Assembly (NCBI GenBank): GCA_902510995.1
Contig: CABXDL010000006.1
Coordinates: 1-55,940 of the forward strand
Direction of reading: 5' to 3'
Length of the DNA: 55,940 nt
From: an uncultured Candidatus Actinomarina sp.
GTDB taxonomy: Bacteria; Actinomycetota; Acidimicrobiia; Actinomarinales; Actinomarinaceae
Positions 18,604-21,662 of the stretch are shown here, piece after piece. The stretch's first letter is position 1, and the number at the start of each line of letters is the position of its first letter. Under the pieces are notes generated by a model. The model worked only from the letters and a program-made list of their open reading frames with translations. It was not told the DNA's origin and searched no databases. The translations under genes and the position numbers were made by a program.

Positions 18604-19518
18604 GTGCAACCAATTGTTAAAAAATTTGATAATAATATATATCAAATTGATGTATTAATGGAAGGTAAAGAAGGCAGGCTAGCTTGCTATTACATTGATT
18701 CTAAAGATCCAATACTAATTGAGGTTGGACCATCAAAATCATTCCCGTATCTTGTATCTGCTTTAGAGAGTTTAGGTATACAAAATATAACAAGATCCGC
18801 AATAACACATCTTCATCTTGATCACGTAGGTGGTATTGGGCATGTTGTTAGTAAATATAAGAATCATTTTGTGCATGTACATGAATTAGGAGTAAAGCAC
18901 CTACCTAATCCAGAGAGATTATGGAACGCCGTTGCCGAAATTTATACTGATGAATGGCTTACTAATAATTGGGGAAAAATAAAACCTACACCTATAGAAA
19001 ATATTAAAACTTTAAATGATGGTCATGAATTTAACCTTGATAAAAATAGAAAATTAAAGTCTTTATATAGTCCAGGACATGCAAAACACCACTATACATT
19101 TTATGATTCTGAATCTGGGACTATATTTATGGGAGACACTCTAGGCTTAATTTATCCTCATGGTGATTTTATACAACCAAACTTGCCTCCTCCGGATTTT
19201 AATAAAGATATACTATTTCAATCTTTAGAGAAAATATATAGTTTAGATTTAAAACAAATAGCAATAGCTCATTTTGGGTTACATTTAAATCCTTATGAGT
19301 TAATTGATAACGCTTATAAAAGTATTAACGAATGGATAATGTTTATTAATAACTTACCAAACACGAGTAATGATGAAGCAGCTGAATTATTAAAAAATTG
19401 GGTAGTAAATAATTATGAGAGTTTGAATGTAGATAGTGAAACAATACAAAACTATATAAGCAATTCTCATTTCTTGATGCAAGTTGCTGGAATAAGAAAT
19501 TATTTAAGTAGCAACTAA
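18604..19518 (+). CDS. Metallo-beta-lactamase-fold hydrolase
   Basis: The product is 304 residues. The di-metal motif THLHLDHVGG is at residues 82-91, with further ligands in SPGHAKHHYTF, FMGDT and IAHFG. This is the glyoxalase II-like or phosphohydrolase branch of the superfamily; the substrate cannot be inferred. Start is GTG 18604 without a clear ribosome binding site. The stop overlaps the convergent glycosylase gene by 4 bases. Confidence 0.82.
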   Translation: MQPIVKKFDNNIYQIDVLMEGKEGRLACYYIDSKDPILIEVGPSKSFPYLVSALESLGIQNITRSAITHLHLDHVGGIGHVVSKYKNHFVHVHELGVKHLPNPERLWNAVAEIYTDEWLTNNWGKIKPTPIENIKTLNDGHEFNLDKNRKLKSLYSPGHAKHHYTFYDSESGTIFMGDTLGLIYPHGDFIQPNLPPPDFNKDILFQSLEKIYSLDLKQIAIAHFGLHLNPYELIDNAYKSINEWIMFINNLPNTSNDEAAELLKNWVVNNYESLNVDSETIQNYISNSHFLMQVAGIRNYLSSN

Positions 19519-19916
19519 GAGTATCTATACCAATCAGGTTTTAAATTTATCTTCTCCTCAATTCTTTTTCTAATAATCTTTAAATCTTTATTTTTAGGTT
19601 TCCAATCATTGTATAAATATTTAGGCCATTGAGATTTATTAAATTTTCTTTTCGGATCTGGATTCATCCCCCTTCTTTTCATCTCTTTTACTAACAGTGA
19701 ATATCTTTTATCTAGGTACATACCTTTATTATAAAAAAAAGTAACATGTCCTTTGTTTAACGTAAATACATCAGGTATATTATTTTTAGTTTTTAACCAA
19801 TTTTTTGATTTAATAGATCGTTGTAGAGAACTTCCAACCATAAATATCTCACGATATTCAGCTACTAGATGTTGATCACTTAATTCTTTCGGATTAACTA
19901 AGTTAATTCTTGTCAT
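19515..19916 (-). CDS. Pyrimidine dimer DNA glycosylase, T4 endonuclease V-like
   Basis: The product is 133 residues and close in pattern to phage T4 DenV. The N-terminus MTRINLVNPKELSDQHLVAEYRE keeps Thr 2 (the catalytic N-terminal amine after Met removal), Arg 3, Arg 22 and the catalytic Glu 23. GHVTFFYNKGMYLDKR and the final KPDWYRY also match DenV's GHVTFFYDK and RPTWYKY. It would cut cyclobutane pyrimidine dimers, suiting a sunlit-ocean organism. Viral ancestry is likely by family distribution. It abuts the membrane protein gene. Confidence 0.93.
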   Translation of the reverse strand: MTRINLVNPKELSDQHLVAEYREIFMVGSSLQRSIKSKNWLKTKNNIPDVFTLNKGHVTFFYNKGMYLDKRYSLLVKEMKRRGMNPDPKRKFNKSQWPKYLYNDWKPKNKDLKIIRKRIEEKINLKPDWYRYS

Positions 19917-20315
19917 TTAATAATTATTAGAGTTTTCAATTTTCTTTTTAATGAAGTAAAAAACAGGAGCACCTAGAAATTCAGCAGGATAAGCCATTAT
20001 TACAAACAACGAAATATTAAGGCCATCAACTAATATTCCATATGTACGCATAACAGCAAAAAGTATAAATATAATTATTAACGTGTTTATATGTTCTAAA
20101 TTATTTGTACCTAAATATTTAAAACCTAAAATTATCGTAAATAAATAAACAATACTTGGATAAGTTATAAAATTTATAAAACCGTAACTTTCACCTGGAT
20201 AAATATCATAAAATTCAAAAGCTATTTCACTTAAAAAATTTACTAGGATCAATAGTCCAGTTAGTAAAATAATCATAAAAATAATAAGAAATCTTAACAC
20301 TTTTGAATAATCCAT
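19917..20315 (-). CDS. Small four-helix membrane protein of unknown function
   Basis: The product is 132 residues with about four hydrophobic helices: LRFLIIFMIILLTGLLILV near residues 7-25, IVYLFTIILGF near 55-65, TLIIIFILFAVMRTYGIL near 78-95 and LFVIMAYPAEFLGAPVFYF near 103-122. A motif NLEHINT sits between helices. No family is recognised with confidence. It is followed directly by the UV glycosylase gene on the same strand, so the two may share a transcript. It starts 29 bases downstream of the terminator at 20345-20362. Confidence 0.65.
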   Translation of the reverse strand: MDYSKVLRFLIIFMIILLTGLLILVNFLSEIAFEFYDIYPGESYGFINFITYPSIVYLFTIILGFKYLGTNNLEHINTLIIIFILFAVMRTYGILVDGLNISLFVIMAYPAEFLGAPVFYFIKKKIENSNNY

Positions 20316-20339: not shown

Positions 20340-20362
20340 AAAAACCCCTGATTTCTCAGGGG
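20340..20362 (-). terminator. Intrinsic terminator copy next to the 5S fragment
   Basis: Reading the minus strand, CCCCTGA pairs with TCAGGGG around a GAAA tetraloop (plus positions 20345-20362) and is followed by a run of five T. It closely resembles the terminator after the complete 5S gene at 21514-21535. It appears to be the original rrn terminator, now displaced with the 5S fragment. Confidence 0.85.
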
Positions 20363-20370
20363 CTCTTCAA

Positions 20371-20441
20371 TAAAAGTCGGCGGTGTTCTACTCTCCCAGA
20401 GGGTTGCCCCTCAAGTACCATCGACGCTAGTGGACTTTACT
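20371..20441 (-). pseudogene. Displaced 3' fragment of the 5S rRNA gene
   Basis: These 71 bases are identical to 21542-21612, which is the 3' part of the complete 5S gene plus a few bases beyond it. At 20442 the match stops abruptly (AACG versus TCCG). The 5' half of 5S is missing, so it cannot make a working 5S. Exact identity implies a recent event or continuing gene conversion. Together with the intact gene it brackets the two lipoprotein genes as a direct repeat. Confidence 0.93.
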
Positions 20442-20566
20442 AACGAAATTGGTAGGTATACAGTACCCTCATGTGCATACAGCGAATATAGGTAATAGTT
20501 GTACGAGTTTTTTCTTTAGTTTTTAGTAATTACGTAATCTGTTCATACTCAATATAAGGAAATAAC
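20442..20566. other. Non-coding left arm of the 5S-bounded island
   Basis: These 125 bases contain no convincing reading frame on either strand, no tRNA and no recognisable promoter. They begin exactly where the 5S fragment ends and stop at the first repeat copy. The content is unlike any sequence on the other side of the intact 5S gene, so this is island-specific DNA or decayed sequence. Confidence 0.5.
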
Positions 20567-20623
20567 AAAAAAAATAGTCGCATAATAGTCGCACTATTTT
20601 TACTACAATTATTTTATGAAACT
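20567..20623 (+). repeat. Repeat copy A, heading the first lipoprotein gene
   Basis: After an A-run, TAGTCGCATAATAGTCGCAC contains the unit TAGTCGCA twice, followed by a shared tract up to the ATG and the first codons (20575-20623). Copy B (20997-21046) differs by three substitutions and one extra T. The tract could hold the promoter, but no -10/-35 pair is clear. The ATG has no Shine-Dalgarno sequence. Confidence 0.85.
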
Positions 20624-20999
20624 TTTTCGTTTTATGTTATTGGCAATTATGTTAATGTCTTGTTCATCTTTTCAAGCAAATAATACAGAAGAAGTAATTT
20701 CAGAGGAAGTATGGCACTGGTGTGTTGGCAACCATAGATATATTTCCTACAACTATGACTACTTGTGGAAAGATGAAGATTTGAGAAATGAAGAAATTGA
20801 TTATACCGAGATACATAAACTTTTTAGCACTTTACTCGCTGCTTTTGATCTTTCTAAAACCCAGCAACTAATAGAAAATAATAACCTAAATTATTCAAAT
20901 CTTCTAGAATCTGAATTTTATACAGCACTTCAAGTCAAAGAAGAAGCACATTTAGAAATTTGTACAATATGGTTTAATATGAATAATCCAAATAAATAA
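20616..20999 (+). CDS. Putative lipoprotein, paralogue 1
   Basis: The product is 127 residues. It has a lipoprotein signal peptide (MKLFRFMLLAIMLMSC) with the lipid-attached Cys at 16. The mature part is acidic and has two further cysteines: WHWC at 36 and ICTIW at 116, which could form a disulphide outside the membrane. The same three-Cys plan and the C(T/K)IW ending occur in the next gene, so they are paralogues. No known family is recognised. Its stop codon lies inside repeat copy B. Confidence 0.75.
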   Translation: MKLFRFMLLAIMLMSCSSFQANNTEEVISEEVWHWCVGNHRYISYNYDYLWKDEDLRNEEIDYTEIHKLFSTLLAAFDLSKTQQLIENNNLNYSNLLESEFYTALQVKEEAHLEICTIWFNMNNPNK

Positions 21000-21046
21000 T
21001 CGCATAATACTCACACTATTTTTACTACAATTATTTTTATGAAACT
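20997..21046 (+). repeat. Repeat copy B, heading the second lipoprotein gene
   Basis: TAATCGCATAATACTCACAC and the following tract match copy A (20575-20623) with three substitutions and one inserted T. The match continues through the ATGAAACT gene start. The copy begins on the stop codon of the first lipoprotein gene. The distance from A to B is 422 bases, about the same as from B to C. Confidence 0.85.
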
Positions 21047-21410
21047 AAAATATGTTATCTTATTTGCAATTATATTAACTTCTTGTACAACCACTGATCT
21101 AGCAACAGATAATCAAATAGATTGGTGTATTTCTAGATCACGTAGTATTAATTTTGTAGCTAATTCTGTATCAGGAAAAAGTTCAGATACGAAGTCTGAA
21201 ACAATAAATTTAATTATATATTGGGAAACAGCCTTGAACCGAGTCGCAAAAAATATGGAAATTGATCCCGATGATGTATTAAATATTGATTATAATACAA
21301 TTGACCCAAATTCCTTATTTCAAGACTTTCAAAATTTGCTAGAAGAAGATGGTGAAGATTTTATGCGTGCTTCTAGAGTTTGTAAAATTTGGGAAGAACT
21401 TTCAAATTAA
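21039..21410 (+). CDS. Putative lipoprotein, paralogue 2
   Basis: The product is 123 residues. The signal peptide MKLKYVILFAIILTSC places the lipid-modified Cys at 16. The mature domain has Cys at 30 (IDWC) and 115 (VCKIWEEL), in the same relative places as paralogue 1. The middle is acidic and helical-looking, without transmembrane segments. Sequence between the conserved cysteines has diverged strongly from paralogue 1 even though the upstream repeat is nearly unchanged. Function unknown. Confidence 0.75.
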   Translation: MKLKYVILFAIILTSCTTTDLATDNQIDWCISRSRSINFVANSVSGKSSDTKSETINLIIYWETALNRVAKNMEIDPDDVLNIDYNTIDPNSLFQDFQNLLEEDGEDFMRASRVCKIWEELSN

Positions 21411-21416
21411 TTTTCT

Positions 21417-21444
21417 AAAAAAATAGTCGCATAATAGTCGCACT
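21417..21444 (+). repeat. Repeat copy C, after the second lipoprotein gene, with no gene behind it
   Basis: This copy is identical to copy A over 25 or more bases (A-run plus TAGTCGCATAATAGTCGCACT) and then diverges. No reading frame follows. It may mark a third unit lost by deletion, or the boundary of the unit. An inverted repeat, TTTTCAA (21451-21457) with TTGAAAA (21466-21472), lies just after it. Confidence 0.85.
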
Positions 21445-21513
21445 TTCTATTTTTCAATAATATCGTTGAAAATTATTAGATAATATTTTATTAAAAATTA
21501 CACTATAAAAATG

Positions 21514-21535
21514 AAAAACCCCTGATAAACAGGGG
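21514..21535 (-). terminator. rRNA operon terminator
   Basis: On the minus strand, CCCCTG pairs with CAGGGG (plus 21519-21535), followed by TTTTTC, about 10 bases after the 5S 3' end. The plus strand also carries a short T-run after the hairpin, so it could stop transcripts of the convergent lipoprotein genes. Confidence 0.9.
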
Positions 21536-21545
21536 CTTTTCTAAA

Positions 21546-21662
21546 AGTCGGCGGTGTTCTACTCTCCCAGAGGGTTGCCCCTCAAGTACCATCGACGCTA
21601 GTGGACTTTACTTCCGTGTTCGGAATGGGAACGGGTGTATCCCCACTGCTATCACCACCGCA
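21546..21662 (-). rRNA. rrf: 5S ribosomal RNA
   Basis: About 117 bases, beginning CGGTGGTGATAGCAGTGGGG and containing the typical CCCATTCCGAACACGGAAGT core. It ends ACACCGCC near the terminator, pairing with the 5' end. It lies last in the 16S-23S-5S operon. Its 3' 66 bases, plus about 5 bases beyond, are duplicated at 20371-20441. Ends are set by pairing and are accurate to a few bases. Confidence 0.95.

Follow-up and report, generated by a model that had tools for sequence, protein, structure and literature searches.

The 1.17-kb island behind the 5S rRNA gene of an uncultured Candidatus Actinomarina sp. is probably an integrase-less mobile element that was inserted site-specifically at the 3′ end of this single-copy gene by a phage-type tyrosine integrase acting in trans, a reading to which we assign a probability of roughly 65%. 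The island lies in a stretch of 55,940 nucleotides (contig CABXDL010000006.1) that is referred to as the window. Comparison with related genomes showed that the 5S locus is a real, recurrent hotspot of site-specific insertion with phage-type attachment architecture and no integrase. Judging from the sequences, action of the integrase in trans is likely.

The island at the 5S rRNA gene and its repeats

The island is delimited by an exact 71-bp direct repeat, as the initial annotation had stated: positions 20371–20441 equal 21542–21612 at a spacing of 1171 bp, a match far beyond chance. The proximal copy (21542–21612, reverse strand) is the 3′ part of the intact 5S gene plus TTTA. The complete gene (21546–21662, reverse strand; Rfam RF00001, 99.4 bits), which is the attachment gene and whose 3′ end is restored by the insert, is located directly behind the 23S and 16S rRNA genes. 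The displaced copy (20371–20441, reverse strand) corresponds in a BLAST comparison to 5S positions 51–117 plus TTTA and represents the old 3′ end. As in integration at an RNA gene, the intact gene thus marks one end and a directly repeated copy of its 3′ part the other.

A rho-independent-type hairpin is present at each copy, in keeping with the annotated terminator pair, yet the two are less similar than had been described. The hairpin adjoining the intact 5S gene (21513–21541, reverse strand; −19.7 kcal/mol) has the spacer TTAGAAAAGCCCCT, which is atypical among 24 relatives, while the displaced one (about 20340–20367, reverse strand) has the genus-typical spacer TTATTGAAGAGCCCCT of the native rRNA-operon terminator. 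Because the atypical terminator adjoins the gene and the typical one is displaced, the terminator now serving the rRNA operon is the insert-borne one. Both the 5S 3′ end and the terminator are replaced by copies on the insert, and the rRNA gene and its transcription stop are therefore restored.

Two genes of the lipoprotein type, convergent to the rRNA operon, occupy the island. Gene 1 (20616–20999, forward strand) encodes 127 amino acids and gene 2 (21039–21410, forward strand) 123 amino acids; the lipoboxes, identified by eye, are LMSC and LTSC, and the two genes have promoter-proximal sequence in common. The annotation of both as lipoprotein genes of no family, opposite in direction to the operon and unaccompanied by an integrase, was borne out. 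Profile searches assigned neither protein to a family in Pfam or PADLOC, and matches in PHROGs were marginal and to proteins of unknown function. Single-sequence AlphaFold models were too poor for use (pLDDT 41 and 51). The two lipoprotein genes are the only open reading frames of the insert, which contains no integrase or regulator gene, and no phage gene is present between its attachment sites. The incomplete draft genome of the window gave no match at all to PF00589.

A feature overlooked in the initial annotation is a doubled 11-bp direct repeat at both ends of the insert. The doubled repeat TAGTCGCATAATAGTCGCAC at 21424–21443 (forward strand) is placed at +116/+127 from the proposed recombination core, and a copy identical over 20 bp is found at 20575–20594 (forward strand), at −206/−195 from the displaced core. 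Both are perfect doubled 11-mers, and a search of the repeat family revealed a third, decayed copy between the two cargo genes (20998–21016, forward strand). Among about 2000 segments of 200 bp drawn at random from the window, none had a doubled 10–12-mer. We propose that the outer copies are the arm-type integrase sites P′ and P, respectively.

Alternatively, the doubled TAGTCGCA repeats might be operators of the two lipoprotein promoters, the insertion having taken place by another route; two of the three copies are indeed located 20–25 bp upstream of start codons. This is unlikely, because the outer copies are identical over 20 bp and the inner one is decayed, the 5S-proximal copy has no gene to serve, and the same layout surrounds unrelated cargo in the congeners G008 and G033. 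Similar pairs also argue against operators: in the viral contigs L155 and L160 they are located ~115 bp from a tRNA gene, and L150 has such a pair where an integrase gene ends. Viral contigs with such pairs number 13, though this is no more than chance for so short a pattern. Doubled repeats of the TAGTCGCA type near tRNA or integrase genes were noted in unrelated phages (L149, L150, L153, L155, and L160), and this type of repeat may be a widespread arm-site motif.

The initial annotation had left three origins open: mobilisation in trans, a decayed remnant, or tandem duplication. The phage-type attachment architecture is compatible with the first two. The third was rejected, since the cargo is unique and the terminators differ. 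A simple tandem duplication or unequal crossover at the 5S gene, with the lipoprotein genes as residents, could leave a partial 5S copy and a terminator, but it is extremely improbable: the native-type terminator is the displaced one, the same architecture with unrelated cargo is found in other genomes, and a comparison with 41 congeners gave no clear relative of either gene, with very weak matches at most.

The variable slot in related genomes

The locus was surveyed in about 30 congeneric genomes in which it is present. The usual order is the 5S gene, its terminator, a variable slot, and a metallo-beta-lactamase gene followed by a fixed gene order, with few exceptions. In the window, the metallo-beta-lactamase gene at 18604–19518 (forward strand) is the conserved far border of the slot. 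The slot is empty in G001, G009, G012, G014, and G015. In many other congeners it contains one to three copies of a 130–140-aa membrane-protein family (c4), with 20 members in the slots of relatives; the native c4 gene of the window (19917–20315, reverse strand) lies outside the insert. Also outside the insert is a pyrimidine-dimer glycosylase gene (Pyr_excise; 19515–19916, reverse strand), which among the congeners examined is found in the slot only here and in G019, where it directly follows the 5S gene and its terminator.

Nine inserts were found in six genomes, namely the window, G008, G011, G013, G027 (two), and G033 (three). They are about 0.3–2 kb in size with one or two genes, and each is followed by a displaced 5S 3′ fragment and a terminator. 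The cargo differs between inserts and includes AIPR/AbiU, T5orf172/PDC-S57, HIRAN-like, lipoprotein, and unknown genes. The AIPR protein scores as AbiU (1.3e-17), the G023 homologue of the T5orf172 protein scores as PDC-S57 (2e-67), and the match of the HIRAN-like protein is sub-threshold. Since some of the cargo has no known function, the term "defence array" describes a tendency and not a rule.

The flanks of G032 and G033 are 97.6% identical over 3 kb, and the three G033 inserts are missing in G032, which is a close, near-empty-site match to the pre-insertion state of G033. The locus alignment that the initial annotation had called for thus revealed unoccupied sites as well as different cargo between 5S fragments. 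This supports its reading of an element that integrated at an RNA-gene 3′ end, restoring the gene and displacing the old end. With empty sites and alternative cargo in relatives, and at most very weak matches to the two genes of the window in 41 congeners, the locus does not show the same cargo in all relatives by vertical inheritance.

Several other arrangements were observed at the slot. In G031:C8 (L051), a gene for a 1101-aa NB-ARC/STAND-type protein fills the slot, and no 5S fragment was found behind it. The bordering metallo-beta-lactamase gene, present in every other congener whose locus is complete, is missing from G020:C2 (L048). In G062:C5 (L118), the c4 gene behind the 5S gene is broken off and followed by mpg and pheT, which are normally upstream of the rRNA operon; this looks like an assembly or amplification chimera. 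A displaced 5S fragment supplies the stop codon of a cargo frame in G027:C28, and the last residues and the stop codon of the cargo frame of the second insert in G033:C1.

In the window, G008, and G033, the insert next to the 5S gene has doubled 11-bp direct repeats at each end, and putative arm-type sites are thus found on both sides of the core, as in RNA-gene integration. The arm type of the window is TGCGACT and that of G008 and G033 is GGCYMVG. Across 42 congeneric genomes, arms of the GGCYMVG type were confined to the two ends of the inserts in G008 and G033; when the entire genome collection was considered, the contigs of these two congeners were the only ones with two occurrences. Recognisable arms are absent from six of the nine inserts (G013, both of G027, the two deeper ones of G033, and G011). 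The confinement of arms to 5S-proximal inserts, with none in deeper ones, fits decay after insertion.

The junctions are clustered. Seven of the nine lie close to the 5S 3′ end in an interval of about 14 bp (positions about 91–104), while those of the window and G011 have a common start near 5S position 50 (the identity block of the window begins at 51). In the attachment model, the longer 71-bp block only means that the donor carried more of the 5S gene and does not mark the crossover point of the window. The part common to the junctions, AGTAGR-ACACYG-CCGACT, appears from its sequence to consist of two imperfect inverted half-sites around a 6-bp spacer. Based on the junction clustering and the cores of phage attP sites, the proposed recombination core of the window is AGTAGA-ACACCG at 21552–21563 (reverse strand), followed by the right half-site CCGACT at 21546–21551 (reverse strand).

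Illegitimate or homology-assisted recombination of linear donor DNA, delivered by transformation or transduction and anchored in the rRNA operon, would proceed without a site-specific enzyme. The G011 insert is suggestive of such an event. It contains native slot sequence and ends in 115 bp of a metallo-beta-lactamase gene that is 87% identical to that of G012 (near G011:C4 78500); this end resembles host flank more than part of a purpose-built cassette, and the 115-bp piece is the result of a transfer of slot DNA between distant lineages. The location of both the window and G011 junctions near 5S position 50 also points in this direction. Nevertheless, the clustering of seven junctions within about 14 bp, with no scatter over several kb of rRNA genes, the doubled repeats at both ends of three inserts, and the phage-identical arm spacing in G033 make this route improbable.

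Phages with a 5S attachment site and the source of the enzyme

A scan of viral contigs for the doubled repeat of G008 and G033 retrieved contigs with the repeats on either side of a 5S 3′-end copy. Among the genes of these contigs are those for a WhiB regulator, a tail tape-measure protein, and a tyrosine integrase of 398 aa, which has Phage_integrase and SAM-like core-binding domains; the arm DNA-binding domain in L122 scored just below the cut-off. The core GGGGAGAGTAGGACAC is located 0.8–1.65 kb from the integrase gene in all 10 viral loci found with this integrase family. The arms of the phage attP sites are placed at −158/−147 or −148/−137 and at +76/+87 from the core (L122, L126, L173, and others). 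In the first insert of G033, the arms at −158/−147 and +76/+87 have the spacing of phage attP to the base, and the P-arm spacer is close to that of phage L126. The G008 arms are at +74/+85, within 2 bp of phage attP, and at −57/−46, where the spacer has undergone a deletion. A terminator hairpin (−20.5 kcal/mol) is present between the core and the P′ arms in the attP sites of L173–L175, at the same position as the terminators of the inserts, and the idea that a terminator beside the core is found in cassettes and never in phages was dropped.

The window shares the layout of these attP sites but differs from them in arm sequence and spacing (+116/+127 and −206/−195), and a different type of integrase was therefore probably involved. 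Neither a phage nor an integrase with TGCGACT arms and a 5S core was found in the viral contigs searched; a candidate, L148, proved to be a chance match in coding sequence. Exact Actinomarina 5S-end patterns were absent from the viral contigs, and the 5S 3′-end pattern of the phages had no match in 395 genomes of the class. The WhiB regulator and the 5S end suggest that the 5S-core phages infect Actinomarina, and from this presumed host the contigs would be of marine origin.

Genomes of the genus essentially contain two tyrosine recombinases each, both of XerC/XerD size, which implies that the enzyme used by the inserts was supplied externally or by a prophage since lost. Insertion by XerC/XerD themselves is not supported: a search for actinobacterial dif-like sites gave no clear conserved match, and the 5S core is unlike dif. 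A full-length, non-Xer tyrosine recombinase was seen only in G034. It was considered as a close relative of the 5S-phage integrase and rejected, since the two are only distantly related (28% identity over 131 residues). The G034 gene adjoins a DNA methyltransferase gene and a restriction-like gene (G034:C1:220000-238000; L144:8100-9978), and the region is probably an integrated restriction-modification island, which is rare in the genus.

The inserts could also be remnants of temperate phages that integrated at the 5S gene and lost everything except the attachment regions and one or two lysogenic-conversion genes. The attachment regions of the first G033 insert and, nearly so, of G008 are phage-like to the base, the G033 P-arm spacer resembles that of L126, the older inserts of the arrays lack arms as decay predicts, and the genomes of the group are strongly streamlined (PMC7771536). 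On the other hand, the cargo takes up the interval between the arms except for 2–8 bp on one side, no phage gene remains, and several different inserts would each have to retain exactly one or two ORFs. The cargo proteins had no match in the 5S-phage contigs, and no relative of the AIPR protein was found in IMG/VR. An intact prophage with the 5S-phage integrase was present in none of the 395 class genomes, in a search made without a positive control. On balance, we regard such remnants as somewhat unlikely.

The tight fit of the cargo between the arms and the lack of phage genes favour purpose-made cassettes over stripped prophages, though not decisively. We tentatively consider, at less than even odds, a dedicated class of non-autonomous single-gene cassettes with complete phage arms and no integrase, with which the integrases of the 5S phages would build anti-phage arrays behind the only rRNA operon, each cassette bringing a 5S end and a terminator. 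The phages and the inserts have no cargo in common, and accordingly no phage–cassette pair is documented.

In the preferred mechanism, an integrase from an infecting or co-resident temperate phage would bind the doubled 11-bp repeats as arm-type sites and recombine over about ACACYG, between the inverted half-sites at the 5S end. Counting against this mechanism are the failure to find a phage or integrase for the arm type of the window, the start of its 5S identity block at position 51, the six inserts without recognisable arms, the host-like end of the G011 insert, and the lack of cargo shared with the phages. The cargo would be kept for host benefit or for the exclusion of competing phages, as the resemblance of several cargos to defence genes suggests; the lipoproteins of the window may act in superinfection exclusion, a guess by analogy. 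In older inserts the arms would be lost, with the genes persisting between 5S-terminator scars.

Comparison with known elements and significance

Cassettes in tRNA genes, marked by repeats of tRNA fragments, have been known in this order since 2020 (Lopez-Perez et al., PMC7771536). These fGI1 cassettes of Ca. Actinomarinales belong to the same host order as the 5S inserts but target tRNA genes and contain mostly envelope-related cargo, in contrast to the 5S target described here. In that study, 5S is named only as a component of the single rRNA operon, the term integrase does not appear, and no link to phage attachment arms is drawn. The use of 5S as the target and the link to phage attachment sites are new relative to it. 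No report of phage integration at a 5S gene was found in the literature searched, which is weak evidence of absence as subscription papers were mostly outside it.

Temperate phages with tRNA attachment sites, including an Actinomarina tRNA-Val phage (PMC3861242) and a prophage (PMC7771536), likewise have an attP derived from the 3′ end of an RNA gene and restore that gene. They carry the integrase in the phage and a WhiB-type regulator, as found also in the 5S-phage family, whereas here the target is 5S rRNA and the inserts are without integrase or phage genes. Phage satellites (PICI, PICMI, PLE, and P4-like elements) are also phage-tied chromosomal elements, often with anti-phage genes (PMC10803314, PMC11389934). 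Satellites described to date bring an integrase and excision factors of their own (PMC10803314), and the 5S inserts, of about 0.3–2 kb, encode neither. The window insert does not fit a satellite of the PICI/PICMI type, as it has no integrase or regulator gene. CALINs and MITEs are similarly recombinase-less and dependent on an enzyme in trans (PMC11389934), but their sites are attC hairpins or transposon ends, while that of the 5S inserts is the 5S end with phage-type arms. Nor does the window insert fit an integron or CALIN, because the junctions are 5S 3′ fragments and terminators, not attC, and the recombinases of the genus are almost all of Xer size.

The initial annotation had pointed to SAR11 as a parallel. 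A variable region beside 5S does exist in that streamlined marine bacterium (HVR2, PMC4053759); unlike the window locus, it is about 50 kb, located between 23S and 5S, and found in another phylum. The parallel does not apply here, as the host is Ca. Actinomarina and not SAR11.

At this locus a 5S rRNA gene functions as an attachment site, and cassettes are tied to the attachment sites of a definable phage family. The single-copy rRNA operon survives repeated insertion because each element supplies a 5S end and a terminator. The 5S fragment together with the arms provides a concrete hook for gathering new defence candidates from metagenomes. If the integrase acts in trans, phages would move genes that are directed against phages.
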